Shown here piece after piece: positions 28,386-36,930 of a stretch of 64,000 nucleotides of DNA. The position numbers were made by a program, and so were the translations under genes. The notes beneath the pieces are model-generated. The model was given only the letters and a program-made list of their open reading frames with translations. It made no database searches and was not told where the DNA came from. The DNA lies in the NCBI RefSeq assembly GCF_006094395.1, contig NZ_CP035291.1, positions 496,001 through 560,000 on the forward strand. Reading direction: 5' to 3'. This stretch comes from Staphylococcus haemolyticus (lineage in GTDB: Bacteria; Bacillota; Bacilli; Staphylococcales; Staphylococcaceae). Each line of letters starts with the position of its first letter. Positions within the stretch are counted from its first letter, which is position 1.

Positions 28386-28406
28386 GAAATGAATTATGAT
28401 CTAGTA

Positions 28407-28437
28407 AAAGTTGAGACATAATGTCTCAACTTTTTAA
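28407..28437 (+). terminator. gnt operon terminator
   Basis: AAAGTTGAGACAT (28407-28419) and ATGTCTCAACTTT (28421-28433) are perfectly complementary, followed by more T residues. Confidence 0.85.
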
Positions 28438-28521
28438 TATATCTGAATTAATTAGATTAAGATATAAAATTTATCTTTATGACTACATCTACTTTAAAAT
28501 AATAATACTCTGGAGGAAAAA

Positions 28522-29313
28522 ATGAATTATATAATAGTTATTTTATTAGCGCTTTGTTTCATCTTATTTTTTAGTGTGCAAAAATTAGTACTTCCAAATT
28601 CGTATTTTACATATTCAGATCCATTTATCAGAAATGAAAGTATTAGTTTGAAAAAATATTTTTATAGAATTGTAGTAGTAATATTCTTTAATGTTTTCTT
28701 TTATTTATTATTGAATTTATTCTATACATCTGGAGAAATTACAACTATGTTATTATCAAGTAATTTCTTAGGTGTATTTTTAATTTTATGGCCATTAATT
28801 TTTAAACCTAGTCAAAATTTGGAAAGAAATTTATCTAAAAAATCTATTGCTTTATTATATAGTATGTATTTTACTTTTTTAATTTCAACAATAGTGATAT
28901 CTATACTTACAATTAACATATTGAAATTATATCTAAATGATATGAATATTATCACAGTGTTTACTTCTAATAAAGAAGGGATTCTATTTGAAATTCTAAC
29001 TATACCTTTCATCTCTGTGATAGATGCATTAGTAACAAAAAAATATACAGATTTTGAAAATGAAGACTATAATAATATTAATCGAGTTCAGTTTAATAGT
29101 AACGGTGTTCATGAATATGAAAATGTAGATGAAAATATGGAATCTGATATAGAGGATATTGAAGAAGAGAGAGAGTCTAGTACAAATTTTAATATTTATC
29201 AATATAAAAATTCTGAATACAGAATTTTGTTTATTTCAATTATGAATTTAGCGCTGGCTTTATTTGATGTTATTGAGAGAAAAAAGGATAAAGATAATTT
29301 TAAAAATGAATAG
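28522..29313 (+). CDS. Unknown four-helix membrane protein, first gene of accessory pair
   Basis: I do not recognise this 263-residue protein. Hydrophobic segments lie at about residues 3-20, 48-70, 76-94 and 107-133, and a shorter one near 155-170. A hydrophilic, strongly acidic stretch (about 178-215, including ESDIEDIEEERE) follows, then a weakly hydrophobic C-terminal helix and a basic tail. The gene is markedly more AT-rich than gntP and galU on either side, suggesting horizontal gain. GGAGG precedes ATG 28522. Its end overlaps the next gene by eight bases, so the two are expressed as a unit. Confidence 0.7.
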   Translation: MNYIIVILLALCFILFFSVQKLVLPNSYFTYSDPFIRNESISLKKYFYRIVVVIFFNVFFYLLLNLFYTSGEITTMLLSSNFLGVFLILWPLIFKPSQNLERNLSKKSIALLYSMYFTFLISTIVISILTINILKLYLNDMNIITVFTSNKEGILFEILTIPFISVIDALVTKKYTDFENEDYNNINRVQFNSNGVHEYENVDENMESDIEDIEEERESSTNFNIYQYKNSEYRILFISIMNLALALFDVIERKKDKDNFKNE

Positions 29314-29794
29314 AATAGAATATAATTTAACAAAAAAAGAAGAAACTATATTAACAGAGAAGTTTGAGTCAGTAATGTTATTAAGGCAAAGACAAGTTAA
29401 TGAAATTTTACAGAAGAAAAACAAAAATAAATATCTTATATTATATATCTATATTATTGAATACATGAATCGAGGTGGTATTTCAACCTACATTTTTGAA
29501 AAATGCTTATGTATTTTAATGCCTAAATTAATCGAGTATTTTGATTTTTCTATTGGGCCATTTCAAATGAAATATAGTTTTGTGAAGTTGTATGCACCAT
29601 ATAGTAGTTTAAATGAAATTTTTAACATAGATTATTGTATTGCAATTTTAGATAATTTTTTTGAAGAAAACAATGATTTAAACGTTTATCAAAAACTCTC
29701 ATTATATCATTCAGGAGAAATTGATAATGAGTATAGGTCTACAAAGATATATATAAACTTATATGAATGGTATAAAAAAACATATATGTTTTAA
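29306..29794 (+). CDS. Unknown protein with lysozyme-like sequence motifs, second gene of accessory pair
   Basis: A 162-residue protein from ATG 29306; an in-frame ATG at 29267 would add 13 residues. No signal peptide or membrane helix is evident. Three motifs in order recall the lysozyme/transglycosylase fold: a helix with a Glu followed by Asn-Arg (IIEYMNRGG, Glu52), SIGPFQMK at 82-89 (compare the Ser-x-Gly-x-x-Gln-Met strand of SLT enzymes), and LYHSGE about 50 residues later (compare the YNaG motif), then repeated Tyr residues. The gap between the first two motifs is longer than in classical SLT domains. The assignment is inference. It overlaps the preceding membrane-protein gene and is as AT-rich. 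Confidence 0.6.
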   Translation: MNRIEYNLTKKEETILTEKFESVMLLRQRQVNEILQKKNKNKYLILYIYIIEYMNRGGISTYIFEKCLCILMPKLIEYFDFSIGPFQMKYSFVKLYAPYSSLNEIFNIDYCIAILDNFFEENNDLNVYQKLSLYHSGEIDNEYRSTKIYINLYEWYKKTYMF

Positions 29795-29916
29795 ATTAGG
29801 CTTATCTTAATTTTATGAATTATTTGTACAACAAGCTATCACTAGGAAAGAAATCAAAAGAGTGATAAACTAACAAATGATATAAAAGACAGAATGTGCA
29901 AAGGAGTTACTTGAGT

Positions 29917-31649: not shown

Positions 31650-32045
31650 ATGAAAAAGGTTATAAATGTTGTTGGCGCTATAATTTATTCAGAAGGGAAA
31701 ATCTTATGTGCACAACGTAGTGAAAACATGTCATTACCATTAATGTGGGAATTTCCAGGTGGCAAAATTGAGCCTGAAGAATCTGAAAAAGAAGCTTTAA
31801 TCAGAGAAATACAGGAAGAGATGAAATGTGATTTAGTTGTCGGTGACAAAGTGACTACAACTGAACACGAATACGAATTTGGCATTGTAAGATTAACTAC
31901 TTTTAAGTGTACATTAAATAATCAAATGCCTACGCTAACGGAACACAAAGAAATCAAGTGGTTACATGCTGGTGAGTTAAAAACACTTCAATGGGCACCA
32001 GCAGATATTCCAGCAGTAGAAATGATTTCAACTGGTGAAGAATAA
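31650..32045 (+). CDS. Nudix (deoxy)nucleoside triphosphate pyrophosphohydrolase
   Basis: A 131-residue MutT/NudG-type Nudix hydrolase. The Nudix box runs from Gly38 (GGKIEPEESEKEALIREIQEEM); the last glycine of the classical box is replaced by Lys (EEMKCD), while all catalytic glutamates are present. The ATG at 31650 is taken as start; a GTG at 31635 overlaps the only ribosome-like site (AAAGGTG), leaving some doubt. Its stop codon overlaps the ATG of the helicase gene (TAATG), so the two are coupled. Such enzymes cleave nucleoside triphosphates; here it may act on nucleotides in a defence setting (inference). Confidence 0.87.
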   Translation: MKKVINVVGAIIYSEGKILCAQRSENMSLPLMWEFPGGKIEPEESEKEALIREIQEEMKCDLVVGDKVTTTEHEYEFGIVRLTTFKCTLNNQMPTLTEHKEIKWLHAGELKTLQWAPADIPAVEMISTGEE

Positions 32046-34909
32046 TGCCTAATAATATAGTAGATAGTTTAAAGCAGTCATTGAATAAAGGTTTTATAGA
32101 TAAAAACGTTGTTCACGAAGGTAATTTGAATCCCAAAATATTAATAAATAATAAAAATCAAAACGTATTAACAACTATTTTAAATGAGTTAAACAAATGT
32201 AATACATTTTATATATCAGTAGCGTTTATTACTGAAAGTGGGTTAGCAAGTATTAAATCAGCACTCTATGATTTAAATAAAAAAGGAATTTCAGGAAAGT
32301 TAATTACTTCTAATTATTTAGGATTTAATACCCCTAAAATGTATAAAGAATTATTGAAACTAAACAATGTTGAAGTACGCTTAACAGACATTGAGGGCTT
32401 TCATGCGAAAGGATATATATTTGACCATGATAATTATTCTTCTATGATCATTGGGAGCTCTAACCTGACATCAACTGCAATGAAAGTAAATTATGAACAT
32501 AATGTTTTGTTGTCAACTCATAAAAATGGCGATTTAATACATAACGTAAGGTATCAATTTGAAGAATTATGGGATAACAGTATACCTTTAGATGAGAAAT
32601 GGATTGAAGACTATGAATTATCATTTAGTCCGAAACTCTATAAAAATTTATTTGAAATCAATAGTGAGCAAAACACATTATTAAACAAATTTAATAAAAC
32701 CAATGAAATAAAACCAAACATCATGCAAGAAGAAGCTTTGATGTCTCTAAGACAATTAAGAGCATCAGGTGAACATAAAGGGTTAGTTATATCGGCTACT
32801 GGAACTGGTAAAACTATTTTATGTGCATTGGATGTAAGGAATTATAAGCCTACTAAATTTTTATTTATTGTTCATAATGAGAGTATTTTAAAGAAAGCTC
32901 GCCAAGAATTTATAAAAGTATTTCCTCATGAAAGTCCACAAGAGTTTGGTTTATATACAGGTACTCAAAAAGAACAAAAAGCAAAATATGTTTTTGCAAC
33001 TATTCAATCTTTAAGTAGAAATGATAATTACAAAAACTTTAAAAAAGACGCATTCGATTATATAGTTTTTGATGAAGCGCATCGAACTGATGCTAAAACA
33101 TATCAAATTATTTTTAATTATTTTAATCCTGATTTTATGTTAGGTATGACAGCAACTCCAGAGAGAACAGATGATGGAAATATATTCAAATTATTTGATA
33201 ATAATATTGCATATGAAATTCGATTACCTAAAGCCTTGGAAAGCAAAATACTTTGCCCATTTCATTATTATGGAGTTACCGATTATGTACATAATGGCAT
33301 AGAAAGTGATGATTTTACTGATTTAAAAGATTTAACTTCTGAAGAAAGGGTTAGTCACATAGTTGAAAAAGCAAACTATTACGGTTTTTCAGGTGATACA
33401 TTAAGAGGGTTGATATTCGTTAGTAGAAAAGAAGAGGCTATTGAAATAGCAGAGATGTTGACAGCTAGAAATATTCCAAGCAAGTCATTGATTGGTAGTG
33501 ACACCCCGAATAAAAGGATGAAAGTAACAAATGAATTAATTAATGGGGAAATTAAATATATCGTCACAGTCAACTTATTCAATGAAGGTATAGACATTCC
33601 AGAAGTGAATCAAATTTTAATGTTAAGAGGTACACAATCTAGTATTATATTTATTCAACAGTTAGGTAGAGGATTGAGAAAAAGTTCTGAAAAAGAATAT
33701 GTTACAATCATAGATTTTATAGGTAACTATAAAAATAACTATCTTATTCCAATAGCTTTGTCAGACAATCAATCTCAAAATAAAAATGCATATCGTGAGT
33801 TTTTAAGTAACCCTAATAAAATAGAAGGTATATCTACGATTAATTTTGAAGAAATCGCTAAGAAAAAAATCTATGATTCTATAGATAATGCTAAATTAAA
33901 TAGTGTAAAAATTATTATTGATGCATATAAAACTGTTGAAGAACGAATAGGTCATATACCAATGCTTATGGACTATATTGAACAAAATTCGATTGACCCT
34001 CAGGTTATTTTATCTAAATTTAGCAGTTATCATGAATTTTTAAAGAAATATAAATATACGCAAATGGAACTCTCAGATGATGCAACAAAAAATTTATGTT
34101 TCTTAACAAGAGAAATATCACCTGGATTAAAAAATTCGGATTATTTAGTACTTGAATATATAATCAATAAAGGTCAAATAGGTGAAGAAATATATGATGA
34201 ATTGAATCATCTTAATAATGAGGATATTAAAACTTCTTTAAAAATATTAACATTAGAATATTTTGGTCAAGCAGAACATGCGAGATATGGTAGTCCAATT
34301 ATAACTAAGAATGGAAATAAATATATTTTGAGTGCTTCATTTAAAAAACATTTGGCAGATATGCAATATCAATTATATGTAGACGATTTAATTAGTTTAG
34401 CTAAATATTATAATGAGAAGTTTCAAAATTCAGGGAATGACTTAATCCTTTATAGTCAATATTCGAGATTAGATTTTCTAAAATTAGTAAACTGGAGAAA
34501 TGATGAAAAAAATATGAGTAATAACATTTATGGTTATAGAGTGTTAGATGATCATATTCCAGTATTTATTACATATAAAAAATCTGAAGATATAGAAGAT
34601 AATATTAAATATGAAGATCATTTTATAAGTCAAGATGAATTAGCTTGGGTTTCAAGAGCAAATGCATCATTAAAAAGTAATGAAATACAAGATATTATTA
34701 ACCATAAAGAGCAAAATAAAAAAGTTTATATTTTTGTAAAGAAAAGTGATGCTGAAGGAAGACTTCATTATTATTTAGGAGAAGCAGAATACATCCAAGG
34801 AACAGCTAAAGAAGAAATTCGAGATATTGGTGATAGAGTAGTAACAATGAATTTTACTATGAAGACATCAATTAGAGATGATATATATAGATATATTGTA
34901 GAAGAATAA
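32045..34909 (+). CDS. PLD-nuclease/superfamily 2 helicase with DUF3427 domain
   Basis: A 954-residue multidomain protein. Domain order: a phospholipase-D-type nuclease with a single HKD motif (HAKGYIFD, 120-127, then GSSNLT); an SF2 helicase with Walker A ATGTGKT (251-257), DEAH (343-346), TATPER and the motif VI QQLGRGLR (538-545); a helical linker; and a C-terminal DUF3427 region (about 780-954, ending in the pattern VTMNFTMKTSIRDDIY). This architecture recurs in bacterial defence islands and restriction-like loci. It is AT-rich relative to the flanking housekeeping genes and coupled to the Nudix gene. It probably loads on and cuts foreign DNA (inference). Confidence 0.85.
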   Translation: MPNNIVDSLKQSLNKGFIDKNVVHEGNLNPKILINNKNQNVLTTILNELNKCNTFYISVAFITESGLASIKSALYDLNKKGISGKLITSNYLGFNTPKMYKELLKLNNVEVRLTDIEGFHAKGYIFDHDNYSSMIIGSSNLTSTAMKVNYEHNVLLSTHKNGDLIHNVRYQFEELWDNSIPLDEKWIEDYELSFSPKLYKNLFEINSEQNTLLNKFNKTNEIKPNIMQEEALMSLRQLRASGEHKGLVISATGTGKTILCALDVRNYKPTKFLFIVHNESILKKARQEFIKVFPHESPQEFGLYTGTQKEQKAKYVFATIQSLSRNDNYKNFKKDAFDYIVFDEAHRTDAKTYQIIFNYFNPDFMLGMTATPERTDDGNIFKLFDNNIAYEIRLPKALESKILCPFHYYGVTDYVHNGIESDDFTDLKDLTSEERVSHIVEKANYYGFSGDTLRGLIFVSRKEEAIEIAEMLTARNIPSKSLIGSDTPNKRMKVTNELINGEIKYIVTVNLFNEGIDIPEVNQILMLRGTQSSIIFIQQLGRGLRKSSEKEYVTIIDFIGNYKNNYLIPIALSDNQSQNKNAYREFLSNPNKIEGISTINFEEIAKKKIYDSIDNAKLNSVKIIIDAYKTVEERIGHIPMLMDYIEQNSIDPQVILSKFSSYHEFLKKYKYTQMELSDDATKNLCFLTREISPGLKNSDYLVLEYIINKGQIGEEIYDELNHLNNEDIKTSLKILTLEYFGQAEHARYGSPIITKNGNKYILSASFKKHLADMQYQLYVDDLISLAKYYNEKFQNSGNDLILYSQYSRLDFLKLVNWRNDEKNMSNNIYGYRVLDDHIPVFITYKKSEDIEDNIKYEDHFISQDELAWVSRANASLKSNEIQDIINHKEQNKKVYIFVKKSDAEGRLHYYLGEAEYIQGTAKEEIRDIGDRVVTMNFTMKTSIRDDIYRYIVEE

Positions 34910-34919
34910 AATTAACGAT

Positions 34920-34968
34920 CACCATAGTGTAATTAGTCAGATTTTAAATTGCACTATGGTGTCTTTTA
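34920..34968 (+). terminator. Terminator of the Nudix-helicase operon
   Basis: CACCATAGTGTAATT (34920-34934) and AATTGCACTATGGTG (34947-34961) pair with one mismatch, followed by TCTTTTATT. Confidence 0.8.
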
Positions 34969-35024
34969 TTATTTTGAATATATAATAATATATGTAATAT
35001 ACATAATGATTAGAGGGATTCAAG

Positions 35025-36293
35025 ATGATAAAAGATATAAAAAATGTTTTGAATTTGATAAAAATGAAAAATAGTGAGGATGTCAGAACGAATAAAGATT
35101 GGGACCTAAGTGACAAGTATTCATCAATTATTGAAGAATTATTGCCCAAACAGCTAGAAAATTTATCTTATAATAAAGACCTTTCAACTACTGGAAGTGT
35201 TGGAAAGGGAAATTATAGTATGGTTCCATGGGTTACTACCTTTAACACTAATATAACTAAAAGCACTCAAAAAGGTTACTACATTGTTTATTTATTTCAC
35301 CCCGAAGGCAAAGAGGTATATCTCTCTTTAAATCAAGGTTGGAGCGAAATTAAAGAAAAAACTTTGGGTGTGAAAAAAGCTAAAGAAAAAGCACTTGCCC
35401 TTTCCAAGTATTTAGCGTCATATCTGGATGATAATAACTTTGAAGTAGGTAGATTTTATTATTCAAATAATAAGGATAGTAAATATGATAAATCGGATTT
35501 GCCAAGTGGATATGCTCACGGTTCAATTATTTATAAGTATTATGATTTTGAGACTGAAGTGTATACCGAGGATATGATGATTTCAGACTACAAAGAAATG
35601 ATTAAATTACTTAACGGATTAGTAAATAAAATTAATATAAATGAATATAACGCTTTATTATTAAATATTAATGAAATAGTAACAATAATAGAGACTAAAG
35701 AACTTAATGAAAGTATTAATGAAAATAAAAATATTCAAATGTCTCAAATAGATAAGCCCAAAGCTTCCACATATGCAAAAAAATATAAGACCTCTACTAA
35801 AAAACAAACTGATGACGACATTGAAAAAGCCCATAAAGAAAACAAAATAACGGGACAAATTGGAGAAAAATTAGCTTATCAATATTTTATGAATTTAATT
35901 GAAAAAAATATATCTGATAAAAATTTACAAGAACAATTTATTAATACAATTGATACATCTATGGGTGAACTGCACGGATATGGATATGACATGACTGCTT
36001 TTGATCCTCAAAATTTAGATAGTCCAGTTGAAAAATATATTGAAATTAAAGCCACTAAATCTAAAAAAGAGGATGAACCTTTTTACTTATCATTAAATGA
36101 AATATATGCCATGTATGAGAACCCTCAAAAATATTTGATATTCAGAATTATAGGATTAAATAGTAAAACACCTAAGTTTTATATTATTGATCCATATGAA
36201 AACCATGATGAATTTGAAAGTGTAGAGGATTTAATAGAGAAAGTCTTTAATGCCGAGTGTATTCAATTTAAAATATTTAATGTTAAACCATAG
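35025..36293 (+). CDS. DUF3578 (MrcB-N) plus DUF3883 nuclease-like protein
   Basis: A 422-residue protein. Residues about 15-180 match the DUF3578/MrcB-N type domain, with the signature VPWVTTF, a GYYIVYLF strand and VYLSLNQGW, a module thought to read modified bases. A lysine-rich linker follows. Residues about 277-420 are a DUF3883 domain with Asp322 (GYGYDMTAFD) and Glu340-Ile-Lys342 (YIEIKATK) in PD-(D/E)XK spacing, and FYLSLNEIYAM after it. This looks like a modification-sensing endonuclease that lacks its own motor domain; the helicase upstream could supply one (inference). AGAGGGA precedes ATG 35025. It has its own promoter region after a terminator. Confidence 0.8.
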   Translation: MIKDIKNVLNLIKMKNSEDVRTNKDWDLSDKYSSIIEELLPKQLENLSYNKDLSTTGSVGKGNYSMVPWVTTFNTNITKSTQKGYYIVYLFHPEGKEVYLSLNQGWSEIKEKTLGVKKAKEKALALSKYLASYLDDNNFEVGRFYYSNNKDSKYDKSDLPSGYAHGSIIYKYYDFETEVYTEDMMISDYKEMIKLLNGLVNKININEYNALLLNINEIVTIIETKELNESINENKNIQMSQIDKPKASTYAKKYKTSTKKQTDDDIEKAHKENKITGQIGEKLAYQYFMNLIEKNISDKNLQEQFINTIDTSMGELHGYGYDMTAFDPQNLDSPVEKYIEIKATKSKKEDEPFYLSLNEIYAMYENPQKYLIFRIIGLNSKTPKFYIIDPYENHDEFESVEDLIEKVFNAECIQFKIFNVKP

Positions 36294-36365
36294 AATATAC
36301 ATCATAGTTAAGAGGGATAACATAAAAGTATAATTACCTGAACCTAAGCGCTTTAACGCATTGTG

Positions 36366-36503
36366 AGTAGTTCTTAGATAGATAACGTAGCGAAGTTATA
36401 AGAATCCTAGCGGAAAAGAAAGTGTCTCAAGACTACAGGCTTGAGCCTTTGCCGCAGGAAAGCGAAATAACTTAAGTAAGTGAATATCTATCTAAGAACT
36501 ACT
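36366..36503. repeat. 138-bp perfect-ended hairpin element
   Basis: The ends AGTAGTTCTTAGATAGATA (36366-36384) and TATCTATCTAAGAACTACT (36485-36503) are exact 19-bp inverted repeats. Inside, helices nest in order: AAGTTAT/ATAACTT (36393-36399 with 36467-36473), GCGG/CCGC (36410-36413 with 36452-36455), AAAG/CTTT (36419-36422 with 36447-36450) and CTCAAG/CTTGAG (36426-36431 with 36440-36445). The whole folds as one long interrupted hairpin. It is GC-richer than its surroundings and contains no gene. It may be a structured RNA or a non-autonomous mobile element. Confidence 0.8.
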
Positions 36504-36610
36504 TTATAGCCCCCTAGGCAAGTATATCGACTTAAGTGAAATATAAATCCTTTTATATTCCACATACATAAATTCCTTCAATAGCTTTCATTTTCAAAAA
36601 AGTGAACTAT

Positions 36611-36661
36611 TTGTGAAAAGTATCACAAAAGACTTTAAAAATTTTTAAAAGGGTGTATGAT
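36611..36661 (+). promoter_or_regulatory. Rex/FNR-like palindrome and promoter of the 63-residue gene
   Basis: TTGTGAAAAGTATCACAA (36611-36628) fits the CRP/FNR-type TGTGA-N6-TCACA exactly and the staphylococcal Rex consensus TTGTGAAWWWWTTCACAA with a mismatch at position 12. TATGAT (36656-36661) is a plausible -10, while the -35 is poor. Redox or oxygen control of the following small gene is likely; the regulator (Rex or an ArcR/FNR-type protein) is open. Confidence 0.55.
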
Positions 36662-36698
36662 AAGAATTGTAAGGAATAAGTAATGGGAAGTGATACTG

Positions 36699-36890
36699 AT
36701 GAGAAAAGTAATTGAAGAAGTTGTTTTTTCTGATGAAGGCAGTTACGACATTTATTTGAAAACTGGTGTTAATCAAGGAATGATCGGTGATATTAAAGAT
36801 GGCTACTTGACTATCGATTCAATTCCATATATTGATGCAGAACGACTATATTACTATGGACTCGAACGTAAAACACTCGTTACAAATTAA
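36699..36890 (+). CDS. Small hypothetical protein, 63 residues
   Basis: A soluble, acidic protein with no recognisable family (MRKVIEEVVFSDEGSYDIY at its start). Alternating hydrophobic residues suggest a small beta-rich fold. ATG 36699 follows GGGAAG; the GTG at 36690 is too close to that site. It stands alone behind a Rex/FNR-like palindrome. I cannot assign a function. Confidence 0.6.
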   Translation: MRKVIEEVVFSDEGSYDIYLKTGVNQGMIGDIKDGYLTIDSIPYIDAERLYYYGLERKTLVTN

Positions 36891-36930
36891 TACAAATTGA
36901 ATGGCCTCCTATTAACATTCAAGAACCTTA

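Follow-up and report, generated by a model that had tools for sequence, protein, structure and literature searches.

On the common view, Type IV restriction enzymes work without a partner, as the host lacks the mark that they attack. SauUSI of Staphylococcus aureus recognizes S5mCNGS, uses ATP to translocate and shreds the DNA between sites, as described in excerpts of its structure paper (PMC7913695, where the accession 7CLG is given), and part of a second report states that one SauUSI polypeptide suffices for activity (PMC3874153). Here we analyze an enzyme of this type in a 64,000-nucleotide stretch of the Staphylococcus haemolyticus genome (NZ_CP035291.1, positions 496,001 to 560,000; this whole stretch is called the window), and find that it is accompanied by a small Nudix hydrolase, to which enzymes of its kind are often linked across the Bacilli (Table 1). 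The Nudix family is already present in PADLOC as the candidate PDC-S07. In Streptococcus suis, PDC-S07 was co-localized with restriction-modification (RM) type IV in 23/23 cases (PMC12813430, in the portion available), and it stands in a table for S. thermophilus in an excerpt of PMC11514479; the same portion of the S. suis paper gives PDC-S07 as a label with neither identity nor mechanism, and the word "Nudix" is absent from its main text. The main text of the SauUSI structure paper contains neither "nudix" nor "mutT", and among the literature matches listed (including PMC7159879), to the extent of their accessible text, we recognized none that connects a Nudix or 5-methyl-dCTP to SauUSI, DUF3427 or Type IV restriction. 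The SauUSI-type enzyme itself is of a known kind, the same PADLOC Type IV model being recorded in 65/169 S. haemolyticus isolates (excerpt of PMC13417997); the present analysis names PDC-S07 as a Nudix protein and counts its linkage across the Bacilli.

Table 1. Features of the locus, in window coordinates
Feature	Position	Strand	Remarks
Nudix hydrolase, 131 aa	31650..32045	+	NudG/MutT2-like, PADLOC PDC-S07; predicted modified-dCTP pyrophosphohydrolase, SauUSI partner
SauUSI-type Type IV restriction enzyme (by homology), 954 aa	32045..34909	+	PLD nuclease, SF2 helicase-like ATPase, DUF3427 target-recognition domain
Hairpin and T-rich stretch 3' of the helicase gene	34917..34975	+	probable terminator (RNA fold)
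Single-chain MrcB_N(DUF3578/ADAM)-NOV_C(DUF3883) protein, 422 aa	35025..36293	+	candidate modification-dependent nuclease; independent accessory gene
Segment for which recent exchange with S. borealis 51-48 (genome G008) is probable	34910..36891		identity profile

The helicase protein aligned end to end with the solved SauUSI chain (7CLG; 1201 bits, residues 5-952) and matched the PADLOC model mREase_IV PDLC03658 with 1257 bits. Pfam placed in it PLDc_2 (3.5e-13), ResIII (1.1e-40), Helicase_C and, at residues 686-951, DUF3427 (PF11907; 2e-69); PLD nuclease, SF2 ATPase and DUF3427 are shared with SauUSI from end to end. The HxK motif of the PLD domain is present (H120, K122), as are the SF2 ATPase motifs (Walker A K256; DEAH at 343); the window enzyme differs from SauUSI in that the Glu of the PLD motif (Glu126 in SauUSI) is conservatively replaced by Asp127. 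These homologies identify the helicase product as a SauUSI-type Type IV restriction enzyme, a defense enzyme already known in kind, and the role that an earlier note on this DNA had proposed for a candidate defense system can be assigned more firmly for this gene.

Linkage to the Nudix gene was counted in samples of 84 genomes from the genus and 108 from the family. In the genus, SauUSI occurred in 33/84 genomes, with five interrupted copies that include those of G023 and, in degenerate form, G055. The Nudix gene (E 1e-25 or better) occurred in 36/84: these same 33 and three others (G005, G028 and G033). It lay immediately upstream of SauUSI, on the same strand, in 33/33 loci, and was missing from 48 of the 51 Staphylococcus genomes without SauUSI. 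All 28 uninterrupted SauUSI genes were accompanied by a stop-free Nudix gene, as were four of the five interrupted ones. In the family sample, 47/108 genomes had the Nudix and 42/108 a SauUSI-type gene (E 1e-60); the two genes adjoined in 42/42, and the Nudix was present in 5/66 genomes without a SauUSI-type gene. Two genera (g2 and g3) carried a divergent enzyme of ~1050 aa, next to which the Nudix was again found but in convergent orientation (5/5).

We extended the count to 398 genomes of the class Bacilli, searched with a Lactobacillus SauUSI (154 matching at 1e-80) and with the window Nudix (124 at 1e-25). The 95 genomes with a best match of at least 375 bits were taken as the SauUSI tier; below this value stand mostly PLD-helicases of ~810 aa, together with some long enzymes, and the choice of cut-off matters. 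A Nudix gene lay within 700 bp of the enzyme in 83 of the 95 tier loci. Two arrangements prevailed: the Nudix was upstream and in the same orientation in 41 and downstream and convergent in 40, the last two being downstream on the same strand. Among the other 12 tier genomes, the Nudix was 0.8-2.9 kb away on the same contig in six (G164, G378, G372, G298, G289 and G259), elsewhere in four (G132, G129, G123 and G276) and absent in two (G348 and G411). The Nudix was thus found in 93/95 tier genomes as against 31/303 others (Fisher p ~1e-60, phylogeny ignored), and at least two of the 31 (G290 and G494) have a lower-scoring enzyme adjacent. A Nudix outside this enzyme tier (31/303) is more frequent than a tier enzyme without the Nudix (2/95), a lopsided pattern of losses as for a protective gene. 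Sets of fetched upper-tier loci, chosen by score and length ahead of the class-wide Nudix search, gave a Nudix in 28/30 (the top 30 by score), 9/10 and 8/8 (seven within 150 bp, one at 946 bp); in a further set it was nearby in 9/12, with one additional weak match 2.9 kb away.

Adjacent pairs span at least 20 families by family code, the window's own included. When 100 SauUSI-type proteins (82 with an adjacent Nudix, 18 without) were placed on a quick tree, in which some forks are unsure, the arrangement changed at least five times among the adjacent pairs, four of these changes being between upstream and downstream; the presence or absence of the Nudix needs nine changes, which are counted in the total of 14. 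The plasmid collection, which supplied all the records examined from outside Bacilli, has 19 records that match SauUSI, and seven of these were opened. An annotated (deoxy)nucleoside triphosphate pyrophosphohydrolase lay directly upstream in four of the seven: L. plantarum, L. curvatus, L. fermentum (whose enzyme match is broken into several pieces) and Hymenobacter, which belongs to another phylum. No Nudix was found near the enzyme in the records of Fusobacterium, Pseudoalteromonas and Spiroplasma, the latter two being partial matches. The link between Nudix and helicase is the widely conserved part of the locus, though not a universal one.

The Nudix protein carries NUDIX_4 (Pfam, 1.1e-16) and matches PDC-S07 along its length (182.5 bits, profile positions 3-130 of 135). 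Its closest solved chains are 5X1X, 3GWY, 2RRK and 5ZRC; S. aureus 5X1X is followed in closeness by a putative CTP pyrophosphohydrolase, E. coli NudG and mycobacterial MutT2. NudG/Orf135 (2RRK) and MutT2 (5ZRC) are also the nearest characterized relatives, and share with the window protein the Nudix box and the PAD motif, the latter present in 57/57 aligned Nudix sequences. The Asp of this motif sits, we assume, at the position of MutT Asn119. Against the NudG equivalog (NCBIfam PRK10546) the window protein scored 103.3 bits, under the curated cut-off of 156 bits; it is not filed as NudG and perhaps works like it. NudG is listed as a 5-methyl-dCTP pyrophosphatase in an excerpt of PMC5389931, with a kcat/Km on this substrate of 3e5 in an excerpt of PMC3744803, and MutT2 acts on 5-methyl-dCTP in the part of its description available. 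Both enzymes differ from the window protein in being described as pool-cleaning enzymes, with no restriction partner mentioned in the passages at hand. Judged by these relatives, we predict that the Nudix is a modified-dCTP pyrophosphohydrolase whose likely substrate is 5-methyl-dCTP. A search of the window genome for the C5-cytosine DNA methylase family gave no match, while the control search was positive in 10/14 known genomes.

Several single cases concern the Nudix where SauUSI is lacking. The same Nudix stands next to a McrB-N-HNH gene in G028, and it is kept in G005 and G033 (loci L086 and L087), where no restriction gene was recognized nearby by eye. C5-cytosine methylase genes occur near the Nudix in G133 and G084 (L116 8074-9024 and L125 1793-3061), two genomes in which SauUSI had no match at 1e-60.

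We propose that the locus consists of a SauUSI-type Type IV enzyme, a dedicated Nudix that guards the nucleotide pool, and a later, unrelated neighbor, a reading to which we assign a probability of about 0.5. By homology to SauUSI, the helicase protein would bind 5-methyl- or hydroxymethylcytosine through DUF3427, translocate with ATP and shred the DNA with its PLD domains. Shredded methylated DNA would release free 5-methyl-dCMP, which cell kinases could convert to 5-methyl-dCTP; incorporated by polymerase, this nucleotide would create SauUSI targets in the host's own chromosome. By hydrolyzing 5-methyl-dCTP, and perhaps hydroxymethyl-dCTP too, the Nudix would prevent such self-restriction.

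A number of counts weigh against the link. In family f3 none of five loci, and in family f4 none of six, has the Nudix link; f4 retains the Nudix elsewhere in the genome, and seven of eight f3 genomes checked had no Nudix match at 1e-5, the eighth having a weak one. Twelve genomes of family f7 have lower-range enzyme matches and none has a Nudix at 1e-25. When six enzymes below 375 bits were inspected, the Nudix was adjacent in two (L208 and L211) and lay beside a split-enzyme remnant in a third (L212), and no Nudix was found near those of L207, L209 and L210, of which L210 lies on a short contig. L207 to L210 all carry DUF3427, and it is the three of them without a nearby Nudix (L207, L209 and L210) that reduce the odds of the proposal: the link is common, but no rule for all DUF3427 enzymes. 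The lower-scoring enzymes without a Nudix also weaken the argument from lopsided losses. In L202 and L212, inserted genes have apparently split the SauUSI-type gene, near one end of which the Nudix lies.

Three other roles for the Nudix were weighed. The first is that of an ordinary MutT-type sanitizer of 8-oxo-dGTP or CTP, linked to SauUSI only through movement of the cassette. Nudix families accept a broad range of substrates, the S. aureus relative 5X1X bears the name of a mutator MutT protein, family f4 holds an unlinked Nudix, and some DUF3427 enzymes have none. We nevertheless hold this role to be unlikely, as adjacency has survived at least four switches of side, the Nudix, unlike a housekeeping gene, is missing from 48/51 Staphylococcus genomes without SauUSI, and its sequence is closer to NudG and MutT2 than to MutT. 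More doubtful still is an antiviral effector that destroys phage hydroxymethyl-dCTP or other modified dNTPs as a second line beside SauUSI. A modified-dCTP hydrolase could act in this way, and the family is a PADLOC defense candidate; however, loss of the modified precursor would also erase the mark that SauUSI reads, so that the two would conflict, and the Nudix stands without the enzyme in only 3/51 Staphylococcus genomes. That the Nudix controls SauUSI in some other manner, such as hydrolysis of a regulatory nucleotide or direct binding, we regard as improbable. The conserved adjacency fits such control, and the one-base overlap in the window suggests coupled synthesis, but in roughly half of the pairs in Bacilli the genes converge, with no hint of co-translation, and SauUSI needs no second polypeptide for activity according to the part of PMC3874153 cited above.

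The earlier note had joined the Nudix and helicase genes with the third gene into one module, and its description of the three ORFs agrees with what we find. All three are present; the Nudix stop and the helicase start share one base; the domains it had named are those reported by Pfam (NUDIX_4/NUDIX; PLDc_2-ResIII-Helicase_C-DUF3427; MrcB_N, or DUF3578, with NOV_C, or DUF3883); and the residues His120, Lys256 and Asp322 sit where it had placed them. The module itself did not hold up. A search for conserved co-occurrence found all three genes together in only 2/84 genus genomes, and the three-gene module was rejected on this count. Full-length relatives of the third gene occur in 6/84 genus genomes and adjoin SauUSI in two of the six, leaving the third gene unlinked elsewhere, and the sensing role given to its product is not needed, as SauUSI itself contains a reader (DUF3427) and a nuclease (PLD). 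We hold it to be highly improbable that the third protein acts as a sensor of modified DNA on behalf of the helicase and the Nudix: the three genes are neighbors in the window and in S. borealis, but only 2/6 full-length relatives are linked, two relatives are carried on S. aureus plasmids, a hairpin separates the two units, and the third gene has a recent history of its own.

This history was read from the comparison with Staphylococcus borealis 51-48 (G008), the closest named relative found for the window, in which neighboring genes are 85-91% identical. The spacer before the third gene (96.5%), the third gene (98.6%) and the small ORF downstream of it (97.4%) exceed the flanks, where galU and SauUSI are 90.9% identical, the Nudix 87.3% and later genes 85-89%; the spacer between the third gene and the small ORF is only 87% identical. 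The segment was probably exchanged recently with S. borealis 51-48 and acquired independently. The genomes G032, G047 and G020 are without the stretch that carries the third gene. Just 3' of this gene lies a perfect 19-nt inverted repeat with arms 100 nt apart (36366-36384 and 36485-36503), which recurs in S. borealis and, in diverged form and at a different site, in G020, and resembles a small mobile element.

The third protein is, by its sequence and predicted fold, a candidate single-chain Type IV nuclease, in which a McrB-like domain may read modified cytosine and a putative PD-(D/E)XK domain may cut, and here the modified-base reader and nuclease of the earlier note are supported. E281, D322, E340 and K342, which make up an E...D...ExK core, are invariant across 36 aligned rows, which comprise the window protein with 35 of the 120 relatives found. 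Strong Foldseek matches were all to McrB-N, and a profile search found McrB weakly (E 0.0012); a sequence search against PDB gave no match. Pfam, up to E 0.1, found no domain beyond MrcB_N and NOV_C and hence neither an AAA+ GTPase nor an HNH domain. The protein thus resembles McrBC in its N-terminal McrB-N (DUF3578) fold and differs from it in that no AAA+ GTPase is found in the chain and the fold is fused to a putative PD-(D/E)XK domain. MrcB_N-HNH proteins, which are presumably ScoMcrA-like, likewise join this type of reader to a nuclease within a single chain, but with HNH where the third protein has NOV_C/DUF3883.

The claim of the earlier note that all three genes are AT-rich was not borne out for one of them: the helicase (26.9% GC) and third gene (27.1%) are more AT-rich than the window as a whole (33.7%), but the Nudix gene, at 35.1%, is not. 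The strong hairpin after the helicase gene (RNA fold of 34905-34985, -21.2 kcal/mol, z -5.2), which exceeds the loop limit of a simple terminator scan and was not listed by it, agrees with the third gene being a unit of its own; promoter-like matches, however, are little above chance (57 against 42.3 +/- 7.5). It is misleading to call the genes inserted after galU. Six other genus loci (G008, G047, G020, G032, G060 and G061) also have galU upstream of Nudix-SauUSI within the 1.5 kb flank examined, and a recent insertion of the pair at this site was rejected, since several relatives have the same gene order. The gene galU is also nearby in G080 and G055, and was not seen in the 1.5 kb flank of the remaining genus loci. 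Between a permease gene and galU, the window holds two very AT-rich ORFs on the plus strand (28522-29313 and 29264-29794; 20-24% GC over most of their length), which had no match in Pfam or PADLOC; the stretch 28390-29830 could not be aligned to G008, G032, G020 or G047.

The PLD-helicases of ~810 aa, which served as controls for linkage to the Nudix, had a Nudix in 1/10 fetched stretches, and DUF3427 was found in none of three scanned. In nine of these ten loci (L173-L181), ORF inspection showed the helicase to be preceded by an overlapping small MazG-like gene, and the eight of the nine small proteins that were aligned have in common a motif that we take to be MazG-type. Pfam reported MazG-like in one of two sister-group proteins scanned, at 9.4e-5 and below the cut-off, NCBIfam returned nothing for five MazG-like proteins, and PDB gave only matches at E 0.31 and 0.44; the MazG assignment is a reading of the motif. 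A Schlafen-type GIY-YIG helicase with a MazG-like neighbor was seen beside the third-gene relative of G064 (L047 9459-13004), and another beside an L. plantarum SauUSI (L128 7892-9972). We tentatively raise the possibility, which we consider to fall short of even odds, that modification-dependent nucleases carry a built-in immunity gene acting on nucleotides rather than on protein or DNA, a pyrophosphohydrolase that would keep the modified base out of host DNA. It is similarly tentative that SauUSI-type enzymes would mostly use a Nudix for this, and their sister PLD-helicases without DUF3427, as well as the Schlafen-type enzymes, a MazG-like protein. If true, three types of nuclease would each have a cleaner, drawn from two unrelated folds, and a metabolic antidote to restriction would be the general rule.

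For the SauUSI-type enzymes themselves, if the host salvages the mark, the picture of Type IV enzymes as needing no partner is incomplete. A function would then be suggested for PDC-S07, so far a PADLOC defense candidate, and the conserved Nudix would supply the immunity so far missing from a main barrier to gene transfer in staphylococci.
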